Source of the DNA: Streptomyces sp. NBC_00223
GTDB taxonomy: Bacteria > Actinomycetota > Actinomycetes > Streptomycetales > Streptomycetaceae
Assembly: GCF_036199905.1 (NCBI RefSeq)
Contig: NZ_CP108109.1
Span: 3,829,501 to 3,893,500 of the forward strand
DNA length: 64,000 nucleotides
Direction: 5' to 3'
The position numbers and the translations under genes are program-made. Positions 8,038 to 21,729 of the stretch are shown here, piece after piece. Position 1 is the first letter of the stretch. Each line of letters opens with the position of its first letter. Below the pieces are notes generated by a model. That model had not been told where the DNA came from. It worked only from the letters and a program-made list of their open reading frames with translations, and did no database searches.

Positions 8038-9537
8038 CTAGACGGACGCGGCCGAGGAGCGGCGGTACTGGGCCGGGCGGCTGCGCCGGCCGCGGGCCGA
8101 CTGCGCGCTGCGCTTGGCCCGCTCCACCACCGGCACGGTGATGGTGACCGGCACCCCGGAAGGCGCCTGCGCCCCGGTGATCCGGGTCAGCTCGGCCTCG
8201 CCGGAGCGCACCTGCGTGGTCTGCGGGGTGATGCCCGCGGCGGCCATCAGCCGGGTCATCTCGCGGCGCTGGTTGGGCAGCACGAGGGTGACGACGCTGC
8301 CGGACTCGCCCGCGCGGGCGGTACGGCCGCCGCGGTGCAGATAGTCCTTGTGGTCGCTCGGCGGGTCGACGTTGACGACCAGGTCGAGGTTGTCGACGTG
8401 GATGCCGCGGGCGGCGACATTGGTGGCCACCAGGGCCGTGACGTGCCCGTTCTTGAACTGCTCCAGGGTGCGGGTGCGCTGCGGCTGCGACTTGCCGCCG
8501 TGCAGCGCCGCCGCCCGTACCCCGCTGTTGAGCAGGTGCTCGACCAGCCGGTCCACCGCGTGCTTGGTGTCCAGGAACATCAGCACCCGCCCGTCGCGGG
8601 CGGCGATCTCCGTGGTGGTGGCGTACTTGTCGGCGCCGTGCACATGCAGCACGTGGTGGTCCATCGTGGTGACCGTGGCCGACGAGGGGTCGACCGAGTG
8701 GACGACCGGGTCCTGGAGGTAGCGGCGGACCAGCAGGTCGACATTGCGGTCCAGGGTCGCCGAGAACAGCATCCGCTGGCCGCCGGGGCGCACCTGGTCG
8801 AGCAGCTCGGTGACCTGCGGCATGAAGCCCATGTCGGCCATCTGGTCGGCCTCGTCCAGCACGGTGATCGCGACCCGGTCCAGCCGGCAGTCGCCGCGCT
8901 CGATCAGGTCCTTGAGCCGTCCGGGCGTCGCGACGACGATCTCGGCGCCGCCGCGCAGCGCGCCGGCCTGGCGGCCGATCGACATGCCGCCGACCACCGT
9001 GGCGATCCGCAGCCGCAGCGAGCGGGCGTACGGGGTGAGCGCGTCGGTGACCTGCTGGGCCAGCTCACGGGTGGGGACCAGGACCAGGGCCAGCGGCTGC
9101 CGGGGCTCGGCCCGCTGTCCGGCCGTGCGGACGAGCATCGCCAGGCCGAAGGCGAGGGTCTTGCCGGAGCCGGTACGGCCGCGGCCCAGCACGTCACGCC
9201 CGGCCAGCGAATTCGGCAGGGTGGCGGACTGGATCGGGAACGGCTCGTTGACACCCAGGCTGACCAGCATCTTCACCAGCGCGGCGGGCATGTCCATCTC
9301 CGCGAAGGTCGCGGCGGGCGGCAGGCCGGGGGTGACGGTGACCGGCAGGGCGAATTCACCCTGCGGAGCGGCCGGGCGGCGGCCGTAGCCACCGGAGCGG
9401 GCCGGGGCGCCGGACCGGCCGGAGCCGCCGGAGCGGGTGGGGGCCTGCGAGCGGAAGCCGCGGCCGGAGGAACCGGCGGAGCCGCCGCCGGTACGGGTAC
9501 GGGAGTAGCGGTCGTTGGTGCGGGTGGTGCGGTTCAT
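8038..9537 (-). CDS. DEAD-box RNA helicase
   Basis: A 499-aa ATP-dependent RNA helicase, probably unwinding structured RNA in the cytoplasm in the cold. The N-terminus (1-75) is rich in Arg, Gly and Ser. The core shows the Q-motif, Walker A (GRTGSGKT), PTRELAQQ, DEAD (VLDEADQM), SAT, then in the second RecA-like domain ATNVAARGI and HRGGRTARAG. The tail is basic (RSAQSARGRRSR), useful for RNA binding. The start at 9537 has a good site (GAGGAAGG). It lies 203 nt downstream of cspA in the same direction, a common actinomycete pairing; a terminator-like hairpin at 9687-9720 separates them, so read-through may be partial. Confidence 0.92.
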   Translation of the reverse strand: MNRTTRTNDRYSRTRTGGGSAGSSGRGFRSQAPTRSGGSGRSGAPARSGGYGRRPAAPQGEFALPVTVTPGLPPAATFAEMDMPAALVKMLVSLGVNEPFPIQSATLPNSLAGRDVLGRGRTGSGKTLAFGLAMLVRTAGQRAEPRQPLALVLVPTRELAQQVTDALTPYARSLRLRIATVVGGMSIGRQAGALRGGAEIVVATPGRLKDLIERGDCRLDRVAITVLDEADQMADMGFMPQVTELLDQVRPGGQRMLFSATLDRNVDLLVRRYLQDPVVHSVDPSSATVTTMDHHVLHVHGADKYATTTEIAARDGRVLMFLDTKHAVDRLVEHLLNSGVRAAALHGGKSQPQRTRTLEQFKNGHVTALVATNVAARGIHVDNLDLVVNVDPPSDHKDYLHRGGRTARAGESGSVVTLVLPNQRREMTRLMAAAGITPQTTQVRSGEAELTRITGAQAPSGVPVTITVPVVERAKRSAQSARGRRSRPAQYRRSSAASV

Positions 9538-9686
9538 ACGGAACCTTCCTCGACGTGGCACGTATCGAGGAACTCCCGGTGGAAACGAGCAGCACGGAGA
9601 ATCGCAAGAACGAGCCGGAACATCAATGAAAAAGCGACCGGGCCACGGAAATATTCCGGGAACGGCTTTCCTGGGAAAAGCGACGA

Positions 9687-9720
9687 GCCGGGTCCCGCAC
9701 CCCAAGGTGCGGGCCCCGGC
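9687..9720. terminator. Hairpin between cspA and the helicase gene
   Basis: The stem is GCCGGG-T-CCCGCACC with GGTGCGGG-C-CCCGGC, 14 pairs with one symmetric mismatch and a 4-nt loop. It lies 20 nt after the cspA stop (minus strand) and probably terminates or attenuates the cspA transcript before the helicase gene. Confidence 0.75.
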
Positions 9721-9740
9721 TTGCGCCGTACGCCTGAGGG

Positions 9741-9944
9741 TCAGGCGGGAACGATGTTCTCCGCCTGCGGGCCCTTCTGGCCCTGGGTGACGTCGAAGGT
9801 CACCTTCTGGCCCTCGCTGAGCTCACGGAAGCCCTGCGCGGCGATGTTCGAGTAGTGGGCGAAGACGTCGGCGCCGCCGCCGTCCTGCTCGATGAAGCCG
9901 AAGCCCTTTTCTGCGTTGAACCACTTCACGGTGCCACTGGCCAT
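9741..9944 (-). CDS. cspA: Cold-shock protein (CspA family)
   Basis: A 67-aa single OB-fold cold-shock domain, a cytoplasmic RNA chaperone. The RNP1 motif KGFGFIEQD and an RNP2-like motif (DVFAHYS) are intact, and the start [18 protein letters not shown] is the usual actinomycete form. GAAGGAG lies 8 nt before the ATG. The messenger has an unusually long leader (see 9945-10266). A hairpin follows the stop codon, then a DEAD-box helicase in the same direction. Confidence 0.95.
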
Positions 9945-10266
9945 GTCATATCTCCTTCGGGGCAGTGCCCGGAGCCCACACCGTGCGGACTCCGCGTCGC
10001 CGCGATGATCGCCCCTCCGGAATAACACCGGAAATACAGAAGTGCGCCCACCGGGTCGAAACACGGCGAGAGCACTTGTAAGTTTTTGGGAACCACAACT
10101 GCAACTGAGCACAACGGTAGCACGATGCAGGCGGTCAGGCGCGGCGAGTAATTTCACTGCGCCGGTCGGCGCATAAATCCTCACCGCGGGTCGAAGTTAT
10201 TTCTGTTCCGGTGACATCAGATATTCTGCCGTCGGCGTGGGGCCAGGGCCGGGGGCCACCGCAGGA
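9945..10266 (-). promoter_or_regulatory. Long upstream leader of cspA
   Basis: There is no gene in these 322 nt. On the minus strand the part close to cspA holds several AT-richer blocks (for example GTGGTTCCCAAAAACTTACA, about 10078-10097) in an otherwise GC-rich setting. Two TTGCAGTTG/TTGTGCTC-like motifs lie further upstream. Long structured leaders that regulate translation by temperature are known for cspA genes of other bacteria; that this one works in this way is inference. The transcription start cannot be fixed by eye. Confidence 0.4.
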
Positions 10267-10686
10267 TCAGGACTCGGAGGTCCCGCCCGTGTCCCCGCCG
10301 TCCCGCCCCCGCTCACCGCTGTCGGCCCCGGACCCGCGCAGCTTCTCGTTGAGCCGCAGGGCCTCTTCGAGCTGGTCCTCCAGGATGACGATGCGGCACG
10401 CGGCCTCGATCGGGGTGCCGGCGTCCACGAGCTCCCGGGCGCGGGCGGCGATACGCAACTGGTAGCGGGAGTAGCGGCGGTGCCCGCCGTCGGAGCGCAG
10501 GGGCGCGATCAAGCGGGCCTCGCCGATGGCCCGCAGGAAGCCGGGAGTGGCACCGATCATGTCGGCGGCGCGCCCCATGGTGTACGCGGGGTAGTCGTCG
10601 TCGTCGAAACGGTCGGTGGCGTGCTGTTTGGCTTCTGGGGACACTTGCACCTCGTCCAAGACCCGTCGAGAGGCCCGATACCTCAT
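10267..10686 (-). CDS. MerR-like helix-turn-helix regulator
   Basis: A 139-aa protein. The segment around residues 33-100 reads YTMGRAADMIGATPGFLRAI, GGHRRYSRYQL and IEAACRIVILEDQLEEAL. This is a MerR-type winged helix (the RRYS wing is diagnostic) followed by a short helix and an acidic, Gly-rich tail. There is no ligand-binding domain, so it is a short, stand-alone family member of the kind often found beside cspA in streptomycetes. ATG 10686 has a poor ribosome-binding site. An internal GTG (about codon 15, preceded by GACGAGG) is an alternative start. Confidence 0.75.
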   Translation of the reverse strand: MRYRASRRVLDEVQVSPEAKQHATDRFDDDDYPAYTMGRAADMIGATPGFLRAIGEARLIAPLRSDGGHRRYSRYQLRIAARARELVDAGTPIEAACRIVILEDQLEEALRLNEKLRGSGADSGERGRDGGDTGGTSES

Positions 10687-10901
10687 CGCACGAGCTCACT
10701 ATCCCTAGCCTACCAACGACAGATTTTCCCGGGCCGGTGGACGAGGTGCCGGGACGCGGCGCGTCTGCGCCGGGTCGGCCCGGGCGTTTCCGCGGGCCCG
10801 GCCGGACGTGTTTCCCCGGGGTCGGCCCGGGCAGGCGCTCCGACGGGGAGGCCGGTGACAGCCGGTGGCCAGTGGTACCGAGCCGACGGAAGGAAGTCCT
10901 C

Positions 10902-11075
10902 ATGAGCGCCAGCGACAAGGCCAAGGCCAAGGCCCAGGAGGCCAAGGGAAGGGCCAAGGAGGCCGCGGGCGGCGCCTCCGGCGACAAGAACATGGAAGCC
11001 GAGGGCCGCGCCGAGCGGACCAAGGGCAGCATGCGCCAGGCAGCGCAGAAGGCCAAGGACGCCTTCAAGCACTGA
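10902..11075 (+). CDS. CsbD-like stress protein
   Basis: A 57-aa, highly charged, Lys/Ala-rich helical protein starting MSASDKAKAKAQEAKG. Its composition, size and the GxxxGDKxMEAEGRAERTKG pattern fit the CsbD family, whose members are often part of general stress regulons (sigma-B in Bacillus); the exact role is unknown. GGAAGGAAG lies upstream. A strong hairpin follows at 11107-11131. No promoter of the SigB type is obvious to me upstream. Confidence 0.8.
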   Translation: MSASDKAKAKAQEAKGRAKEAAGGASGDKNMEAEGRAERTKGSMRQAAQKAKDAFKH

Positions 11076-11106
11076 CCCGGCGCACGGCCCGTACGGGACG
11101 GGAGGT

Positions 11107-11131
11107 GCCTCCCCCACCAGGTGGGGGAGGC
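11107..11131. terminator. Bidirectional hairpin terminator
   Basis: A nearly uninterrupted palindrome, GCCTCCCCCACC / GGTGGGGGAGGC, sits between the convergent ends of the CsbD-like gene (plus) and the 11147-12592 gene (minus), and can serve both. Confidence 0.75.
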
Positions 11132-11146
11132 GCCTCCCGCGTCCGT

Positions 11147-12592
11147 TCAGCTTCCGTAGCGCAGATACACCGTGTCCCCGAGGTGCACGGTCGTGCCCCG
11201 GGAGGCGGCCACGAGGGCCGAGCCGTCGAGACCGGCCCGCCAGGTGGCAGCGCCGGCGTTCGCCGTGCCGTTCAGCGCGGTGATCGTGCCGCTGCCGGTC
11301 GCCGGGGTGAGAGAGGTCACGCAGCCGCTGGGGGTGGCCGCGGCCTTCGCGGCGTCCAGCACGGCGCCCAGCGTGGTGGTGGCGCCACCGGCCGTCACGG
11401 GCACCGAGCAGACCCGCAGCGTGCCCGTGCCGTCGTCCACGACCAGCGCGAGCGGACTGGTGGCGCCGCTGGTGAAGTCCGTGGTGCCGACCCAGCGCGG
11501 TGCCCCGGCCGTCACCGGGGTCGGCGGCGCGGCGGTGAAGCCGCCTCCGGCGACCGCGCGCAGGGCGTCGATGGAGGAGTACGCGGAGGGCGAGGTGTCC
11601 GTCGGCAGGTACTTGAAGCCGCCGGCGGGGTTGAACTGCTGGGCGAGGAGGAAGTCCAGGGGCGTCTTGCCGGCGGGCGTGGTGAAGTCGGCGCCCTGGG
11701 GGTTGAATCCGCAGGCGTTCAGACCGGACACCGCCCAGCCGTTGGAGTCGCTGTTGGCGCCGAACATCGAGTTGAACGCCCCGGAGCCGTTGACCAGCTT
11801 GCCCTTGAGGAAGTTCTTGCCCGCCACCACGGCCGGGTCGGTGTTGGCCACCCCGCTGACGCACAGGGAGGCCAGCGTCGCGCCCGTCATGTCGATGTCG
11901 CTGGTGGCGGCGAGCGAGGTCGGATTGCCCGCGGCCTGGCCGTAGTTCCAGCCGCCGTCGTTGTGCTCGTTGGCCCGGACCACGGCGACCGAGGCGTCGA
12001 GCAGCGCCTGCGGCACGCGCTGTACGCCTCCTTGGGTCTTCGCGCCGCCCAGCGCGAGCAGCGCGAAGACCGTCCCGTTGAAGTTCGCCGGGGGACCGTA
12101 GTAACCGGGCGAGGACGTCTGCCAGTACGAGGCGATGTCCGCGATCAGATTGCGGCCGGTGCCGACCCGGGCCGGATCGATGCCCGCGGCGTACGCGTTG
12201 AGGGTGCCGCGCTCGTAGTCGGTGACGACCGGTGAGGCGCTGGGCCAGGAGGAGGCCGCGAGTTGGCCCCGGTAGACGGTACGGGCGTTCTTGGTGGTGT
12301 CACCGCCCGGAGCGAGGTCCACGGCGGCGGTGCCCGCGGCGGCCAGCGCGCTGAACGCCCACTCGTTGGAGAGCCCGCTGCCGGCGAAGCTGCCGTCGGA
12401 CGCCTGGAGGGTCTTGAGGTAACCGACCCCGTTGGCCTTGGAGGTGGCGATCTGGGCCGGGGTCGAGGTCGCGCCGGCGGGTGCGGACGCGAGGACGAGG
12501 GCGCCGACGGCCAGCGGGACGGTGAGCGCGAGCGCCCGTCTGCCGGGCCGGTGCGCGGTGCGGGTGGTGAACACAGAGGTGAGCGCGGTCAT
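11147..12592 (-). CDS. Secreted transcobalamin-like protein (alpha-toroid plus DUF4430-like domain)
   Basis: A 481-aa exported protein with a signal peptide ending near residue 43 (APAGATS). Residues about 50-345 contain prenyltransferase/squalene-oxidase-type helical repeats (QASDGSF, NEHNDGGWNYG, GAFNSMFG, NPAGGFKYLP) that build an alpha/alpha toroid. Residues about 385-481 form a beta-rich end with TLGAVLDAA, ITALNG, a WRAGLDG strand and LGDTVYLRYG, fitting DUF4430. An alpha6/alpha6 barrel followed by a DUF4430-type beta domain is the architecture of intrinsic factor and transcobalamin. A cobalamin riboswitch lies in its leader (12676-12812). The inferred role is extracellular binding of cobalamin or a related corrinoid. 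Enzymatic terpene cyclisation is unlikely because no DxDD/QW active-site pattern is seen. RBS: GAGGAG. Confidence 0.8.
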   Translation of the reverse strand: MTALTSVFTTRTAHRPGRRALALTVPLAVGALVLASAPAGATSTPAQIATSKANGVGYLKTLQASDGSFAGSGLSNEWAFSALAAAGTAAVDLAPGGDTTKNARTVYRGQLAASSWPSASPVVTDYERGTLNAYAAGIDPARVGTGRNLIADIASYWQTSSPGYYGPPANFNGTVFALLALGGAKTQGGVQRVPQALLDASVAVVRANEHNDGGWNYGQAAGNPTSLAATSDIDMTGATLASLCVSGVANTDPAVVAGKNFLKGKLVNGSGAFNSMFGANSDSNGWAVSGLNACGFNPQGADFTTPAGKTPLDFLLAQQFNPAGGFKYLPTDTSPSAYSSIDALRAVAGGGFTAAPPTPVTAGAPRWVGTTDFTSGATSPLALVVDDGTGTLRVCSVPVTAGGATTTLGAVLDAAKAAATPSGCVTSLTPATGSGTITALNGTANAGAATWRAGLDGSALVAASRGTTVHLGDTVYLRYGS

Positions 12593-12675: not shown

Positions 12676-12812
12676 CGATCGCGTGGTCAGGCTTCCGCGG
12701 TGCTGCGTCGCCGAACGGGTGATCGGGCTGAGCCGACCGGGGCCTCAACACCCCATGACCGGCTACACCGTTGCGCGTCAGCCCCGGAATCACACCGGGT
12801 TCCCCCGGTCGG
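12676..12812 (-). ncRNA. Cobalamin riboswitch, leftward
   Basis: Read on the minus strand, the conserved core is present in order: GGGGAACCCGGTGTGATTCC, then GGGGCTGACGCGCAACGGTG, a variable stem-loop region, and the B12-box-like GGAAGCCTGACCACGCG. A short outer stem (CCGA/TCGG) may close the aptamer. The box ends in CACGCG rather than ACCTGC, so it is a diverged member. The start codon of the transcobalamin-like gene lies 84 nt downstream, and the last part of the leader could pair over its GAGGAG site. In this class, bound cobalamin turns the gene off. Confidence 0.85.
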
Positions 12813-12822
12813 TGACACGGTG

Positions 12823-12850
12823 AGGCTAACGCAGTGCGGCGGGCGCGCAA
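12823..12850 (-). promoter_or_regulatory. Leftward promoter of the riboswitch gene
   Basis: On the minus strand TTGCGC (12850-12845) and TAGCCT (12828-12823) are separated by 16 nt. This is a good vegetative-type promoter, about 10 nt before the riboswitch core begins. Confidence 0.6.
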
Positions 12851-12888
12851 GGGCGCCGGGAGAGTGGCGAAGGCGACTGCGCACGGCG

Positions 12889-12918
12889 TTGACGCGCCCT
12901 CGGCCGCCGTGTTCACAT
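12889..12918 (+). promoter_or_regulatory. Rightward promoter of the ECF operon
   Basis: TTGACG (12889-12894) is followed after 17-18 nt by TTCACA/TCACAT (12912-12918). The -10 box is only fair. The start site would fall just before the P1 stem of the rightward riboswitch. Confidence 0.5.
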
Positions 12919-12934
12919 GAAACGCATTTCCGAT

Positions 12935-13025
12935 TCAGCAGCCAGGGGAAGCCGGTCGAATTCCGGCGCTGACCCGCAACCGTAGGCCCGCCGCCGAGGC
13001 GGGCGAGCCGGACCACCTGCGCTGA
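12935..13025 (+). ncRNA. Cobalamin riboswitch, rightward
   Basis: The core matches the class closely: AGGGGAAGCCGGTCGAATTC, CCGGCGCTGACCCGCAACCG, a GC-rich hairpin (GCCCGCC/GGCGGGC-type), and the B12 box AGCCGGACCACCTGC at 13006-13020. TCAGC (12935-12939) and GCTGA (13021-13025) close the P1 stem. The 116-nt stretch to the GTG at 13142 can form a hairpin (GTACGGCCCC/GGGGGCGTAC, one mismatch, 13071-13095). It also holds the AGGGGG ribosome-binding site, so either termination or sequestration of translation is possible. Confidence 0.93.
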
Positions 13026-13141
13026 ACACGCAAGTCACGATCGCCGTCGAGGACTACGGCGCGGACGACGGTACGGCCCCGGCACGGGGGCGTACGGCTC
13101 CGCGGCCCGCCCTCCCCGCCGGCCGACCAGGGGGCCCACCG

Positions 13142-16100
13142 GTGCTTCATCTCGTCAGGCGTCGCCGTCACGGACAGCCGCGCGCGTTCACGCTGTTCAC
13201 GGCGGCCGTGCTCACCCTCGGCACGGCCGCGGCCGGCCTGCTGTCGGCGGCGGCGCCCGCGAGCGCGGACCCGCTCGGCGACTGCACGTCCACCACGGGC
13301 GCGATCGTCGCGGTGGACTACGGCCACTGGGGCGGCCCGGTCGTGCGCGGCTGCGACGCGCACCCGACGACGGGGATGAACCTGCTGCACAACGCCGGGT
13401 TCACCACCACCGGGACGGTCCACGACGGCCCCGGCTTCATCTGCCGGATCGGCGTCGACGCCTACGACGGCGGCGCCGCGTACCCGACCGCCGCCGAGGA
13501 GCCCTGCACGACGACCCCGCTGCCGTCGGCGTACTGGTCGTTCTGGATCGCCCCGCGCGGCCAGGACACCTGGACGTACAGCCCGCGCGGCGCGCTGAGC
13601 GACGTGCCGCTGGACGGCGAGGTCGAGGCGTGGGTCTTCGGCCCGACCGATGTCGGCGGCACGACCGGCGGCCCCTCCTTCACCCCGGCCTCGGTCCGCG
13701 CGGAGGGCGCCCCCACCACTCCGCCGACCACACCCCCGACCAGCCCGACGGCCCCCGCGGGCACGGCCGACCTGCCGGCCGCCGCGACCTGGCTGGTGGG
13801 GCAGCTCACCGACGGCGACCACGTCTACAACGAGAACTGGGAGACCGCCGACTTCAACCGCACCGCCGACGTGGCCCTCGCGCTGGCCGCCGCGCGGGAG
13901 CGTAAGGACACGATCGGCGCGATCGACGCCTATCTGACCGCGCACGTCACCGAGTACGTCTGGCCCGAGGGCGCCTCGGCCGCGCCCAGTCCGGCGGCGG
14001 CCGCCAAACTCGCCCTGCTCACCGAGGTCCTGGGCGGCGACCCGACCGACGTCGGCGGCCACGACCTGCTGGCCGCGCTCACCGACAACGTCTGCGACGC
14101 GGCGGGCAGCCTCGGCTACTGCACGGCGGCCGGTGACTTCCACGGCGCCTTCGCGCCCGAGGCGCAGGCGCTCGGAGTGCTGGCGCTGGCCCGCGGCGGC
14201 GTCACCCCGCCGGCCTCGACCGTCACCCGGCTGACCCAACTCCAGTGCAAGGACGGCGGTTTCGCCGGTTCCATGGTCGTCCCCGGCGAGTTCTGCGGGT
14301 CGGACGTCACGACCACAGGCGAGGCCGTACTCGCCCTGCGGCAGGTGGCCGGCACCGGCGCCACGCTGGACAGCGCCGAGGCGTTCCTGATCAAGCAGCA
14401 GGCGGACGACGGCGGTTACGAGCTGTGCCCGGGCGCGGGCACCGGCGACACCGGGACGACCTCGTCCGCCGCGCAGGCGCTGCTCGCGCTCGGCGACGAC
14501 GACCGGGCGGCGAAGGCCCGCGCATGGGTGGCGGCCCGGCAGACCGACGACGGCGGCTTCACGGCCGACGCGGCGAGCACCGACCCGGACCTGTACGCCA
14601 CCCCGCAGGCGGTGTTCGCCGTCACCGGGATCGACCTGGGCCGTTACGTCTACGACCCGGACCAGCCCACCACGCCGCCGACCACACCCCCGACGACTCC
14701 GCCCACCACGCCGCCGACGACACCGCCGACGACCCCTCCCACGACGCCGCCGACCACCCCGCCCGCCGGGGCCTCGCCCGACCTGGTCAAGGGCGTGTCC
14801 TACCTGGTCGACCGGGACCGGCTGCTCGACGGCCACTACTACGAGTCCTTCCCCGGCACCGGTTTCGCGGACTTCGGTCTGACCATCGACACGGTCTTCT
14901 CGCTCGCCGCGACCGGCGGCAACGACGCGGCACTGGAGCGGATCACCGAATTCCTCCAGCACGGCACGGACGGCTCCGGCCGCGGTATCGACGCCTGGAC
15001 GGCCATCGGCACCCCCTACGCGAGCGGCGGCTCGATCGGCAAGGAGGCGGTCCTCGCCCAGGTCACCGGGTACGACCCGCGGTCGTTCGGCGGCCACGAC
15101 CTGATCGCCGCGCTGGACGCTCTGGTCTGCGCCAAGGCGGACACCACGAAGGGCTGCGCCGCCGCGGGCAATTACGCCAACGCCCCCTCGGTCTTCTCCC
15201 AGTCGCTCGGCGTCATCGCCCAGTCGCGCGCGGGCGACGACGCCAAGGCGGCCGCGCCGATCGCCTACCTGGAGAGCCTCCAGCTGGCCGGCGGCGGCTT
15301 CCCGAGCCTGATCCCGTCCAACGGCGAGCCCGAGGTGGACAGCACGGCGATGGCGATCATGGCCCTCGACCTGGTGCCCGGGAACGCCGCCGCTCAGGCG
15401 GTCGCCAAGGGCGCGGCCTGGATCGCCGGGCAGCAGCAGGCCGACGGCGGCTTCCCCGGCGCGGCCGGCGACTCGGTCAACTCCGCGGCCCTGGCCGTCC
15501 AGGGGCTCAGCCTGGACCCGGCGAAGTACGCCGAGCAGATCGCCGCGGCCCGCGCCTTCCTGGCCCACGAGCAGAACTCCGACGGCGGCTTCCGGGTCGC
15601 CTCGGACTCTTCCTCGACCGAATCCGACGTGCGCGCCTCGGCGCAGGCGGTCGGCGGCAGCGTCGGCACGTCCTTCGGGACGCTGCTGCGGGACCTGCGC
15701 GACCAGAAGGCCGCGGCGGCCGGGGCGGCGTACCTGGTCAAGCAGCTCGGCGGCGGTGACCACCTCGCCAACTCCTACGGCCCCGACTACGGGCTGAGCG
15801 CCGACCTCGCGCTCGCGCTGGCCGCGGCCGGCGGTCAGGACACCGCGCTGACGAAGGTCACCGGCTACCTCGCGGACCACGCCGCCGACTACGCCGACCC
15901 GGCGGGCACCTCGGCCTACCCGGGCCCGTACACCGGCGCGGCGGCCAAGCTCGCGGTGCTCGCGGAGGTCACGGGCCGGGACCCGCGCGGCTTCGGCGGC
16001 TTCGATCTGATCGCGACGCTCACCGGCCATGTGTGCGCCGCCGCGACCGACGACGGCGCCTGCACGGCGCCGGGCGACTTCACGCAGGCGTACTCGACCG

Positions 16101-16830
16101 TGTCGCAGTCCCTCGGCGTACTGGCGCTGGCCAGGGCCGGAGTCACCCCGCCGGCCGCGGTCGTCACCCGGCTCACCCAACTCCAGTGCAAGGACGGCGG
16201 TTTCTCCTCCGCGCTGTTCACGCCCGGCACCGACTGCGTCTCCGACGTGGACACCACCGGCTACGCCGTGCAGGCGCTGACGCTGGTGCCCGGACAGGAC
16301 GCCGCGGTCGCCGCGGGCCGCGCGTACCTGGTGAAGTCGCAGCAGAAGGGCGGCGGTTACCCCGGCGCGGCGGGCGTCAACGCCAACTCGACGGGCCTGG
16401 CCGTGCAGGCGCTGCTCGCCACCAGTAAGGGGCGGCCCGAACAGGCCCGTACCGGGCAGGAGTTCCTGCGGTCGACGCAGAACACCGACGGCGGCTTCCG
16501 GATCACCACGGAGGCCGGTGACTCCGACACCCGGTCCACCACGCAGGCCGTACCCGCGCTGGCCGGGACCTCGCTGACCACGCTGGTGCAGGCGATCGCT
16601 CCGGGCGACGGATCGGGCTCCGGCTCGGGCGGGGCCTCGAACGGCGGCTCCGGCTCGGGCGGTACGTCGGACGGCGGGTCGGACTCCGGGAACGGCGGCT
16701 CCGGCGGCGGTTCGCTCGCCGCGACCGGCACCGACGCACTGGCGCTGGCCGGGCTCGCGGGCCTGCTGCTGGCCGCCGGCGGCACGGTCGTCGCGGCCCG
16801 GCGCAGGGCGGGGACGAACGGGAGGCACCA

Positions 16831-16834
<4 letters not shown>
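13142..16834 (+). CDS. Cell-wall-anchored giant with three alpha-toroid domains (corrinoid capture, inferred)
   Basis: A 1230-aa exported protein. The signal peptide covers residues 1-42 (APASA/DPLG). A Cys-containing beta domain (about 45-185, with AVDYGHWGGPVVRGC, GPGFICRIG, AYWSFW) resembles DUF4430 and is paralogous to the N-terminal domain of the next gene. Three helical-repeat domains of the prenyltransferase/squalene-oxidase fold follow at about 205-505, 545-855 and 857-1145, marked by QCKDGGF, DDGGF, QADGGF and NSDGGF motifs. Proline/threonine (PTTPP) linkers separate the first two. A Gly/Ser tail leads to LAATG (1192-1196), a hydrophobic stretch and an Arg-rich end: an LAXTG signal for class E sortase. 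GTG start. First gene behind a cobalamin riboswitch. Transcobalamin-type ligand binding is inferred. Confidence 0.8.
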
Positions 16835-17946
<1,112 letters not shown>

Positions 17947-17948
17947 CG

Positions 17949-19166
17949 GTGCCGACAGCCGCCGACGGCCCGGCCAGGGCGGTCCCGCCCGCCGGGTCCG
18001 GCCGCAGGCTGCCGCGCACCCTGCACCCGGTGGCGTGGTGGATCTGGGGCATCGGCCTGGCCACGGCGGTCAGTCGGACCACCAATCCGCTGCTGCTCGG
18101 CCTGGTGCTGGCCGTCCTCGGCTATGTCGTCTCCGAGCGGCGCACGGACGCGCCGTGGGCCCGCGGCTTCAAGTACTACCTGTGGCTGGCCCTGATGGTC
18201 ATCACCATCAGGGTGGCCTTCCGCTGTGTGTTCGCCAGCGGCATCACCCCGGCCGACCACATCATGTTCTCGCTGCCGCACATCCCCACCCCGCACTGGT
18301 ACGCGGGCATCCAGCTGGGCGGCCCGGTCTCGCTGGAGGCGACGCTCTCCGCCGCGACCGACGGACTGCGGCTGGCCTGCCTGCTGTGCTGCATCGGCGC
18401 GGCCAACACCCTCGCCAACCCCAAGCGCGCGCTGCGCGTCCTGCCCGGCGCGCTGTACGAACTCGGCGTCGCCGTCACGGTGTCCATGAGCGTCGCGCCC
18501 CAACTCGTCGAGAGCGCCCAGCGGGTGGCCCGAGCGCGACGACTGCGGGCCGACCGGGCCAAGGGGCTGCGGGCGCTGCGCAGCGTCATCATCCCGGTGC
18601 TCGAAGACGCCCTGGAACGCTCGCTGTACCTCGCCGCCGCGATGGACTCCCGCGGCTACGGGCGCGCGGGCACCGCCACCCGTGCCTCGCGCCGGGCCAC
18701 CGGGGCGCTGATGCTGCTGGGCATGCTCGGCCTGTGCACGGGGGTGTACGGGCTGCTCGACGGCACCACCCCGCGCTCGCTCGGGCTGCCCGCGATGCTC
18801 GCCGGGTCGCTGCTGTGCTGCGCCGGGCTGGCGCTGGGCGGCCGCCGGGTCCGCCGTACCAGCTACCGGCCCGACCCCTGGCGGACGCCGGAGTGGGTGG
18901 TCGCCGGGTGCGGCTGCGCATCCGCGGTCGTGCTGTTCGTCACCGTGGGGTACCAGGCGAACGACCTCAACCCCTCCCTCTATCCGCTGAGTTGGCCGTC
19001 GCTGCCGCTGCTGCCCGCCGCCGCGGTGCTGCTCGCCGGGGTCGCCGCCTTCGCCGCGCCACCACCCGTCCGTACACCCCGCGGCCCCGGTTCCGGCGCG
19101 GGTCGGCCTGCCCCCGCGCAGACCCGCGGCACCCGGAGCGACACCCCGAGCGAGGCCCTACTGTGA
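17949..19166 (+). CDS. ECF transporter T component (EcfT/CbiQ family)
   Basis: A 405-aa membrane protein that couples ATPases to the substrate-binding S component. Hydrophobic segments lie at about 25-60 and 75-95. The two coupling-helix signatures of EcfT are visible: ARARRLRADR (194-203) and AMDSRGYGRA (231-240). Further membrane segments lie at about 255-300 and 318-375. A Pro/Arg-rich cytoplasmic tail of about 35 residues is longer than in most family members. The GTG start is 2 nt after the preceding stop, and the gene ends in a GTGA overlap with the ATPase gene. It belongs to the cobalamin-riboswitch operon. Confidence 0.88.
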   Translation: MPTAADGPARAVPPAGSGRRLPRTLHPVAWWIWGIGLATAVSRTTNPLLLGLVLAVLGYVVSERRTDAPWARGFKYYLWLALMVITIRVAFRCVFASGITPADHIMFSLPHIPTPHWYAGIQLGGPVSLEATLSAATDGLRLACLLCCIGAANTLANPKRALRVLPGALYELGVAVTVSMSVAPQLVESAQRVARARRLRADRAKGLRALRSVIIPVLEDALERSLYLAAAMDSRGYGRAGTATRASRRATGALMLLGMLGLCTGVYGLLDGTTPRSLGLPAMLAGSLLCCAGLALGGRRVRRTSYRPDPWRTPEWVVAGCGCASAVVLFVTVGYQANDLNPSLYPLSWPSLPLLPAAAVLLAGVAAFAAPPPVRTPRGPGSGAGRPAPAQTRGTRSDTPSEALL

Positions 19167-20881
19167 TCCGATTCGACCAGGTCAGCGTGGTCTACGACGG
19201 CGCCGACCGGCCCGTGCTGCGCGAGGTGGACCTGCACATCGAGGAGGGCGAACTCTGCCTGGTGGTCGGCAGGACCGGCGCGGGCAAGTCCACCCTGCTC
19301 GGCGCGATCAACGGCCTCGTACCGCACTTCACCGGCGGCACCCTCGCGGGCCGGGTGACCGTCGACGGGCGTGACACCGCCCACCACCCGCCGCGTGAAC
19401 TCGCCGACGTGGTGGGCGTGGTGGGCCAGGACCCGCCCGCCGGCTTCGTCACCGACACGGTCGAGGAAGAACTCGCCTACGCGATGGAGCAGTTGGCGAT
19501 CCCCGCCGATGTGATGCGCAAGCGCGTCGAGGAGACCCTTGATCTGCTGGGGCTCGCCGAGCTGCGGCACCGGGCGCTCAGCGAACTGTCCGGCGGGCAG
19601 CAGCAGCGTGTCGCCATCGGCTCCGTCCTCACCGCCCACCCCCGGGTGCTGGTGCTGGACGAGCCGACCTCGGCGCTCGACCCGACCGCCGCCGAGGACG
19701 TACTGGCCGCCGTGACCCGGCTGGTGCACGACCTCGGCGTCACGGTCGTCCTGGCCGAACACCGGCTGGAACGGGTCGTGCAGTACGCCGACCGGGTCGT
19801 CCACCTGGCGGGCGACGGCACGGTGAGCGACGGCCCGCCCGCGCACGCCTTCCGTACGGCGTCGGTCGCGCCTCCCGTGGTGGACCTCGGCCGGCTCGCG
19901 GGCTGGGACCCGCTGCCGTTGTCGGTACGGGACGCCCGGCGGGCGGCGGCTCCGCTGCGGGAGCGGCTGACCGCGCTGCCCGTGCCGGCGCCGCGGACCG
20001 CGCGGGTGCCGGCAAAGGCGTCCGGGGAGGCGTCCGGGGAGGCGCTGCTCACGGCGCGGGGCGTGGTCGTCCGTTACGGCGAGGTCGTGGCCGTCCGCGA
20101 GGTCGACCTCGAACTACGGGCCGGGCAGGTCACCGCGCTGATGGGCCGCAACGGCTCGGGCAAGTCCTCGCTGCTGTGGGCTCTGCACGGGGCCGGGCCT
20201 CGGCAGGCGGGGACGGTACGGGTCGCCGGGGCGGAGAGTCCCGGCGCCGCAGAGGCCACGGAGAAGCGCGGAACGTCCGCGCGGCGCTGGTTCGGGGCGC
20301 GGCGCGCGGACGGCGCCGGGCCGCGGCGGCGGCTGGTCGGGCTGGTCCCGCAGACGCCGACCGATCTGCTCTACCTGGAGACCGTGGGCGCCGAACTCGC
20401 CCAGGCCGACCGGGAGTCCGACGGTGTCTCCGCGCTGTCCGCGCGGCAGATCCTGGACCGGCTCGCGCCCGGGATCGCCGACGGGTCCCATCCCCGTGAC
20501 CTGTCCGAGGGGCAGCGGCTCTCGCTCGTGCTGGCCATCCAGCTCACGTCGGCTCCGTCGGTGGTACTGCTGGACGAGCCGACCCGCGGCCTCGACTACC
20601 AGGCCAAGCACGCGCTGATCCGGATCGTGGACGCGCTGACCGCGGAGGGCCGCGCCGTGGTGATCTCCACGCACGACGTGGAGTTCGTGGCGGCGAGCGC
20701 GGACCGGGTGGTCGTGATGGCGGAGGGCGAGATCGTCGCCGACGGGCCGACGGCGGAAGTCATCGTCGCGTCACCGGCGTTCGCGCCGCAGACCGCGAAG
20801 ATCCTGGCGCCGCTGCCGTACTTGACGGTGGATCAGGTCGAGGACGCGCTCACCGGCATGACGACGGAGGACGGACGGTGA
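19163..20881 (+). CDS. ECF transporter ATPase, two nucleotide-binding domains fused
   Basis: A 572-aa cytoplasmic ABC ATPase that powers the ECF transporter. NBD1 has Walker A GRTGAGKST (36-44), signature LSGGQQQR (142-149) and Walker B VLVLDEP (162-168). NBD2 has Walker A GRNGSGKSS (328-336), a less usual signature LSEGQ (447-451) and Walker B VVLLDEP (467-473). The two halves are joined by an Ala/Arg-rich linker around 240-300 with a small repeat (ASGEASGEA). Most ECF systems use two separate ATPases, EcfA and EcfA'; the fusion fixes a 1:1 ratio. GTG start overlapping the previous stop. Confidence 0.92.
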   Translation: MIRFDQVSVVYDGADRPVLREVDLHIEEGELCLVVGRTGAGKSTLLGAINGLVPHFTGGTLAGRVTVDGRDTAHHPPRELADVVGVVGQDPPAGFVTDTVEEELAYAMEQLAIPADVMRKRVEETLDLLGLAELRHRALSELSGGQQQRVAIGSVLTAHPRVLVLDEPTSALDPTAAEDVLAAVTRLVHDLGVTVVLAEHRLERVVQYADRVVHLAGDGTVSDGPPAHAFRTASVAPPVVDLGRLAGWDPLPLSVRDARRAAAPLRERLTALPVPAPRTARVPAKASGEASGEALLTARGVVVRYGEVVAVREVDLELRAGQVTALMGRNGSGKSSLLWALHGAGPRQAGTVRVAGAESPGAAEATEKRGTSARRWFGARRADGAGPRRRLVGLVPQTPTDLLYLETVGAELAQADRESDGVSALSARQILDRLAPGIADGSHPRDLSEGQRLSLVLAIQLTSAPSVVLLDEPTRGLDYQAKHALIRIVDALTAEGRAVVISTHDVEFVAASADRVVVMAEGEIVADGPTAEVIVASPAFAPQTAKILAPLPYLTVDQVEDALTGMTTEDGR

Positions 20882-21729
20882 GCGCGGCGACGACTTCCCG
20901 GGTGCCTCCGGCCGCCGCCGGGCGTACGACGGCGGTCCGGATGCACACCATGGCCGTGGTCGCGATCGTGCTCGCGGCCTTCATCGGACTGGTGGCGTTC
21001 TTCTGGCCGTTCGTCGTGGCGCCGGGGCGCTTCGGCTCCTCGTACGCGCCCCCGCTGATCTTCGGTGTGCTGCTGGTCCTGGTCCTGGCGGTGGTGTTCG
21101 CGGAGATCGCCGACGGCGGCATCGACGCGAAGGCGCTGGCGATGCTGGGGGTGCTCTCGGCGGTCAACGCGGCGCTGCGGCCGCTGGGCGCGGGGACGGC
21201 CGGGGTGGAGACGGTGTTCTTCGTCCTGGTGCTGGCCGGGCGGGTCTTCGGGCCGGGCTTCGGCTTCACCCTGGGCTGCACCTCGCTGTTCGCGTCGGCG
21301 CTGCTGACGGGCGGGGTGGGGCCGTGGATGCCGTACCAGATGTTCGGCTGCGCGTTCGTCGGAATGCTGGCGGGGGTGCTGCCGCGGGCCCGGGGCAAGG
21401 CGGAGGTGGTGCTGCTCGCGGTGTACGGGTCGGCGTCGGGCTATCTGTTCGGCTTCCTGCTGAACCTGTCCTTCTGGCCGTTCTCCCTCGACCCGCACAG
21501 CTCGATCGCGTATCTGCCGGGGTTGCCGTTCACGGAGCAGTGGCACCGGTATCTGGCGTTCGACGTGGCGACGTCGCTGGGGTGGGACACGGGACGCGCG
21601 GTCACGAACTTCGCGTGCGTCCTCATCGCGGGTCCTGCGGTCCTGACCACGTTCCGCCGCGCGGCCCGCCGCGCCAATTTCACGGCGCCGGTCACCTTCA
21701 CGCCTCCGGAGCGGCAGTCACGGACGTGA
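20878..21729 (+). CDS. ECF transporter S component (corrinoid-specific, inferred)
   Basis: A 283-aa membrane protein with about six to seven hydrophobic segments (for example MAVVAIVLAAFIGLVAFFWP, LIFGVLLVLVLAVVFAEIA, MFGCAFVGMLAGVLP, AVYGSASGYLFGFLLNLSF). The core pattern ALRPLGAG...ETVFFVLVLAGRVFGPGFGF is the arrangement seen in ECF S components, where a glycine-rich helix packs against EcfT. Substrate specificity is inferred only from the cobalamin riboswitch and the transcobalamin-like partners; it would correspond to the CbrT-type role. A precursor such as dimethylbenzimidazole is an alternative substrate. GTG start overlapping the ATPase stop. Its stop codon lies inside the first copy of the 21726-22015 repeat family. 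Confidence 0.82.
   Translation: MSAATTSRVPPAAAGRTTAVRMHTMAVVAIVLAAFIGLVAFFWPFVVAPGRFGSSYAPPLIFGVLLVLVLAVVFAEIADGGIDAKALAMLGVLSAVNAALRPLGAGTAGVETVFFVLVLAGRVFGPGFGFTLGCTSLFASALLTGGVGPWMPYQMFGCAFVGMLAGVLPRARGKAEVVLLAVYGSASGYLFGFLLNLSFWPFSLDPHSSIAYLPGLPFTEQWHRYLAFDVATSLGWDTGRAVTNFACVLIAGPAVLTTFRRAARRANFTAPVTFTPPERQSRT

Follow-up and report, generated by a model that had tools for sequence, protein, structure and literature searches.

A predicted sortase-anchored protein with a transcobalamin-like beta domain and three toroids, probably part of a B12 scavenging system in Streptomyces sp. NBC_00223

The 1230-aa protein described here probably acts at the cell surface in a system for scavenging B12 (corrinoids). 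It is encoded in a 64,000-nucleotide stretch of the Streptomyces sp. NBC_00223 genome (the window), whose genus we take to be Actinacidiphila. Two cobalamin riboswitches, an operon with the genes of an ECF transporter, the domain folds and a sorting signal were found to be conserved together. The riboswitches and the ECF operon support the corrinoid theme that a first-pass annotation had proposed for the protein.

The gene starts with a GTG codon and has the sequence AGGGGG upstream (Table 1). The distance between the start and the beta domain is 43 aa and is identical in several orthologues. The earlier description of an exported chain with a beta domain, three toroids and an LAATG signal holds; however, PTTPP linkers, which were thought to join all three toroids, are present at two junctions only, as T2 and T3 abut and the tail is Gly/Ser-rich. 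The mature part (1100 residues) was modelled with AlphaFold2 from 36 sequences with a mean pLDDT of 81; the pTM of this long model is 0.53 and the relative placement of the domains in it is unreliable.

Table 1. Position of the features in the window
Feature	Position	Strand	Remarks
Divergent secreted toroid protein, 481 aa	11147..12592	-	own riboswitch, without LAxTG
Divergent cobalamin riboswitch, upstream of the 481-aa protein gene	12697..12836	-	RF00174 27.6 bits, E 6e-5; R1 105.2 bits
Cobalamin riboswitch upstream of the operon	12905..13039	+	RF00174 31.1 bits, E 6e-6; R1 133.6 bits
1230-aa protein	13142..16834	+	signal peptide, beta domain, three toroids, LAATG sorting signal
Signal peptide (predicted from sequence)	13142..13270	+	residues 1-43; RRRR, hydrophobic core, ASA before DP
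N-terminal beta domain	13271..13711	+	residues 44-190
PTTPP linker 1 (from sequence)	13712..13756	+	residues 191-205, before T1
Toroid T1	13757..14641	+	residues 206-500
PTTPP linker 2 (from sequence)	14642..14770	+	residues 501-543, between T1 and T2
Toroid T2	14771..15676	+	residues 544-845; widespread core toroid
Toroid T3	15677..16567	+	residues 846-1142; no linker to T2
Gly/Ser-rich spacer (from sequence)	16568..16714	+	
LAATG sorting signal, hydrophobic stretch, RRR tail	16715..16831	+	LAATG at residues 1192-1196
Second beta-domain protein	16831..17946	+	single C-terminal membrane helix, without LAxTG
ECF T component, CbiQ family	17943..19166	+	PF02361 8e-8
ECF double ATPase	19163..20881	+	TIGR04520 E 1.6e-82
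ECF S component	20878..21729	+	TIGR04518 weak, 25.6 of 60 bits; relatives match PF12822

The three toroids match Pfam Prenyltrans (E 1e-18) and are homologous to each other, with BLASTP identities of 48% for T1/T3 (8e-65), 44% for T2/T3 (7e-49) and 35% for T1/T2 (8e-27). Twelve helices are predicted by AlphaFold2 in each of T1, T2 and T3. The annotation as three toroid-fold domains is thus supported by computation. In the PDB the closest folds and profiles are those of class II terpene cyclases, which match better than transcobalamin; glycosidases are also found, and transcobalamin 4zrp is among the matches with an E-value of 2.5e-5 over about 313 aligned columns. When the whole protein was compared with the PDB by phmmer, the significant matches were squalene-hopene cyclases only. 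Pfam PF01122 reaches 17.8 bits with the toroids, below its gathering score of 25 bits, and gave weak matches in 5 of 30 toroids. Matches of the toroid profile to TAL effectors were taken as repeat artefacts.

These similarities raise the alternative that the toroids are enzymes, similar to terpene or prenyl cyclases or to glycosidases, with a substrate at the surface, and that the riboswitch reflects no more than a B12-linked pathway. QW-like Gly-Gly-aromatic repeats, present in 140 of 144 toroids, would agree with it. The catalytic DxDD motif of class II cyclases, however, occurs in 1 of the 144, which makes catalysis of this type unlikely, and a terpene cyclase function was dropped for this reason. 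Moreover, the toroid proteins are exported with a wall-sorting signal, the toroids are fused to a transcobalamin-type beta domain and the operon contains ECF genes, so that we give the enzyme reading very little credence and retain corrinoid capture.

The beta domain is 51.7% identical to the domain of the second beta-domain protein, and it was found in 29 of 296 genomes sampled across the phylum. Its profile retrieved no relative in the PDB or Pfam by sequence; Pfam DUF4430 (PF14478) matched neither the genome nor any of 23 beta domains. A relative was obtained by fold search alone. The domain has low confidence inside the long model and was modelled with a pLDDT of 88.6 when treated alone (AlphaFold2, 45 sequences). 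Ranks 1-5, 7 and 8 of the PDB fold search with this model are taken by transcobalamin (three entries), the DUF4430 protein 3u7z (two chains), haptocorrin and intrinsic factor. The scores are weak (best E 0.041, TMq 0.39-0.50). Despite these modest E-values chance is hard to invoke, because B12 carriers and DUF4430 top the list. The models thus support, at the level of the fold, a transcobalamin-type domain. Its position ahead of the toroids, opposite to that in transcobalamin, is as first annotated.

One cobalamin riboswitch precedes the operon, its RF00174 match spanning 12887-13009, and a second one precedes the divergent gene. With Rfam at the RF00174 gathering score (31.5 bits) both were missed, as they score just below it; they were found by a permissive scan, by their orthologues and by a family model. 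Among the orthologous copies those of L039, L041, L042, L046 and L049 on the operon side and those of L043 and L048 on the divergent side exceed the gathering score (32.4-38.5 bits). The family model, R1, is a covariance model built from nine riboswitch copies, and it ranks the two window copies first genome-wide by construction, since both belong to the training set. R1 found a riboswitch before the toroid gene in 59 of 59 orthologous loci and likewise before the divergent gene in 59 of 59. Most of these loci lie outside the training set of R1, and L089 is not among them. Two further sites of the genome resemble cobalamin riboswitches according to R1 (7869763-7869888, 52 bits; 5675240-5675324, 48 bits), and a strong additional one (85.8 bits) was seen downstream of the operon of a congener (L039:16023-16243).

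The gene of the 1230-aa protein heads an operon in which successive genes overlap by 4 bases, its stop being overlapped by the start of the second beta-domain gene (GTGA). A complete ECF set follows, with a T component, two ATPases and an S component. The order of toroid protein, beta protein and ECF T-A-S genes is kept in Streptomyces, Kitasatospora, Micromonospora, Catellatospora and Dactylosporangium. For the S component no related PDB chain, CbrT included, was retrieved even by profile.

We considered whether the ligand could be another B12-related compound, namely cobalt, a corrinoid precursor (cobinamide, for example) or a lower-ligand base. Uptake genes for such ligands are also under the control of B12 riboswitches. 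The T component belongs to the CbiQ family, the searches with the S component point to no substrate or substrate class, and a CbiC gene in the genome indicates that the B12 synthesis pathway exists at least in part. On the other hand, the resemblance of the alpha and beta halves to those of transcobalamin suggests a ligand of the size of a corrinoid, and no cobalt subunits of the CbiM/CbiN type were recognised in the operon. We consider a ligand other than cobalamin unlikely. Import of B12 by the putative system may be salvage, given the CbiC gene.

The gene of the divergent 481-aa protein is of a type that forms the divergent partner in most loci. An alignment of this protein with the toroids had been suggested; the similarity is remote: BLASTP recovers T3 only (E 1e-5), and profile-profile comparison with the three-toroid family by hhalign gives a probability of 96.8% (E 2e-10). 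The region C-terminal of its toroid resembles another beta domain by eye only. As the beta-domain profile gave no match when compared with this protein, we do not claim it as such. The neighbours at 8038-11075 of the window are ordinary genes for a DEAD-box helicase, a cold-shock protein, a MerR-type regulator and a CsbD-like protein.

The 1230-aa protein has all marks of a class E sortase substrate, i.e., a signal peptide, LAXTG, a hydrophobic stretch and a basic tail. LAxTG is kept in 53 of 60 orthologues; MPVTG or MASTG is found in three more, and the last four are truncated or broken close to the ends of contigs. This recurrence argues against a chance occurrence of LAATG. In proteins of the second beta-domain type the motif was found in 0 of 74. 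The class E sortases of S. coelicolor recognise LAXTG (PMC5148588), and the genome studied here encodes two class E sortases in tandem (NF033747, 253 and 245 bits). As far as the sequence can tell, the class E sorting signal of the first-pass annotation is therefore well founded.

In species genomes the scan recovered 74 loci, which belong to Actinacidiphila, Streptomyces, Kitasatospora, Micromonosporaceae and a number of MAGs. Of the 60 proteins in which an N-terminal beta domain is joined to toroids, 53 have two toroids and four have three; three, cut or broken, have one. The three-toroid form was seen only in the genus Actinacidiphila, where the locus is present in 12 of 35 genomes (seven with three toroids, four with two, one with one). 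In the tree the first toroids of the two-toroid proteins group with T1 and the second ones with T2, whereas the T3 copies, confined to the genus, form a group of their own next to the first-toroid lineage (99/96). T1 is the fastest-changing toroid and is absent from some congeners: three two-toroid congeners carry T2 and T3, which indicates that T1 was lost there, and one carries T3 alone. Triplication had been regarded as a meaningful state. With two toroids as the usual form, a range from one to three and a genus-level, unstable third copy, special functions should not be assumed for it, and avidity, storage or differing corrinoid preferences of the toroids are speculation. Nor can a chain be assumed to have three complete transcobalamin-like sites, as each has one beta domain.

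In the split operons of Catellatospora and several MAGs a single-toroid gene adjoins a separate beta gene. These lone toroids are mostly best matched by T2; the anchored ones match T2 best, and so do the second toroids of two-toroid proteins. Separate neighbouring genes suggest that the partners need not share one chain. Because toroid number varies and T2 matches the lone toroid of the split operons, the 1230-aa protein is a variable fusion of transcobalamin-like halves. The usual set of two beta domains and two toroids per operon would give two composite sites. Separate beta-domain and single-toroid genes were also noted in L061, L062, L067 and L057 at about 8600-11200 (in L057 to 13967); there the single-toroid gene has LAxTG or a similar motif, and some of these pairs lie next to a complete two-toroid operon. 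In Kitasatospora/Streptomyces and Micromonosporaceae a toroid gene and a beta-domain gene form a second pair, which is unanchored (L058:4675-6369, L060:4864-6836, L065:3881-5674, L095:1-1639, L098:5503-7202, L109:3349-5159). Several of these pairs have their own cobalamin riboswitch, and they possibly encode a secreted, split B12 binder.

The surplus of toroids without matching beta domains in Actinacidiphila, together with the LAxTG anchoring signal, could also mean that the protein stores or buffers corrinoids at the wall, or keeps them from neighbours, and does not feed the transporter. We hold this to be quite improbable, since the operon linkage with the ECF genes is strict and one congener is down to a single toroid.

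For the preferred reading, corrinoid capture, we infer repression by cobalamin, binding, hand-over and anchoring. At low cobalamin the riboswitches would switch on both divergent genes. After export of the 1230-aa protein, a class E sortase would cleave it at LAAT-G and link it to peptidoglycan. A corrinoid would be held between the toroids, as the alpha half, and beta domains, as it is between the two halves of transcobalamin; the beta domains involved would be the one on the same chain and that of the membrane-tethered product of the next gene. The corrinoid would then be handed to the ECF transporter at the membrane. In evolution, an ancestral system of one toroid and one beta domain would have gained T1 and then T3.

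Several points count against capture. The toroid to beta ratio in the window operon is 3:2, so that at least one toroid is left without a beta partner, and a protein fixed to peptidoglycan may sit far from a membrane transporter. In addition, the toroids are closer to terpene cyclases than to transcobalamin, the S component has no detectable relation to CbrT or to any PDB chain, the beta domain stands before the toroids and its fold E-values are individually weak. A more far-reaching idea, which we put forward tentatively as possible rather than probable, is an actinobacterial transcobalamin of interchangeable halves. These would ancestrally be encoded by separate neighbouring genes, act in trans between wall-bound and membrane-bound proteins, and have been fused and multiplied to one, two or three toroids, tuning B12 capture.

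Compared with known systems, this is probably a bacterial B12-catching system with parts folded like the two halves of transcobalamin. Transcobalamin, intrinsic factor and haptocorrin likewise have an alpha6/alpha6 toroid, and the B12-linked context is shared; their beta domain resembles the modelled one in fold, with weak scores. In contrast to that family, the beta domain comes first here, there are two or three toroids per chain and a wall-sorting signal, the Pfam thresholds of PF01122 and DUF4430 are not reached, and B12 binding is putative. The SCO2321/SCO2322 families of NCBI also have a toroid gene and a beta-domain gene before an ECF operon with a cobalamin riboswitch, but their single toroid carries a membrane anchor. 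The 1230-aa protein scores 243.8 bits with the SCO2321 family NF053823, below the 300-bit cut-off, and several congeners carry loci of both types.

The BtuG lipoproteins of Bacteroides are surface B12 catchers encoded with B12 transport genes (PMC6143338). Compared by description alone, they differ from the 1230-aa protein in anchoring and cell envelope. We are aware of no surface binder that works with CbrT. ECF-CbrT, the vitamin B12 transporter of the ECF class (PMC5997447), is likewise an ECF-class importer and has the substrate proposed here, but the S component of our operon has no detectable relation to it. Chaplins and other Streptomyces SrtE substrates share the LAXTG class E sorting signal (PMC5148588); the domains here are of a ligand-capture type and not those of an aerial-hypha coat.

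Literature on SCO2321-2325, on DUF4430 with cobalamin and on actinobacterial B12 uptake contained no study of the system, subscription papers lying largely outside this search, and in the searchable literature we found no description of filamentous Gram-positive bacteria catching B12 outside the cell. If our reading is true, a riboswitch-controlled, sortase-anchored, transcobalamin-like binder beside an ECF transporter would be the missing surface step. It would also give a function to the unnamed SCO2321/SCO2322 families, and reveal that a fold known best from the B12 carriers of animals has bacterial relatives in the form of separate halves. With its natural forms of one, two and three toroids, the family would be a ready experiment on the reasons for which a binder is multiplied.
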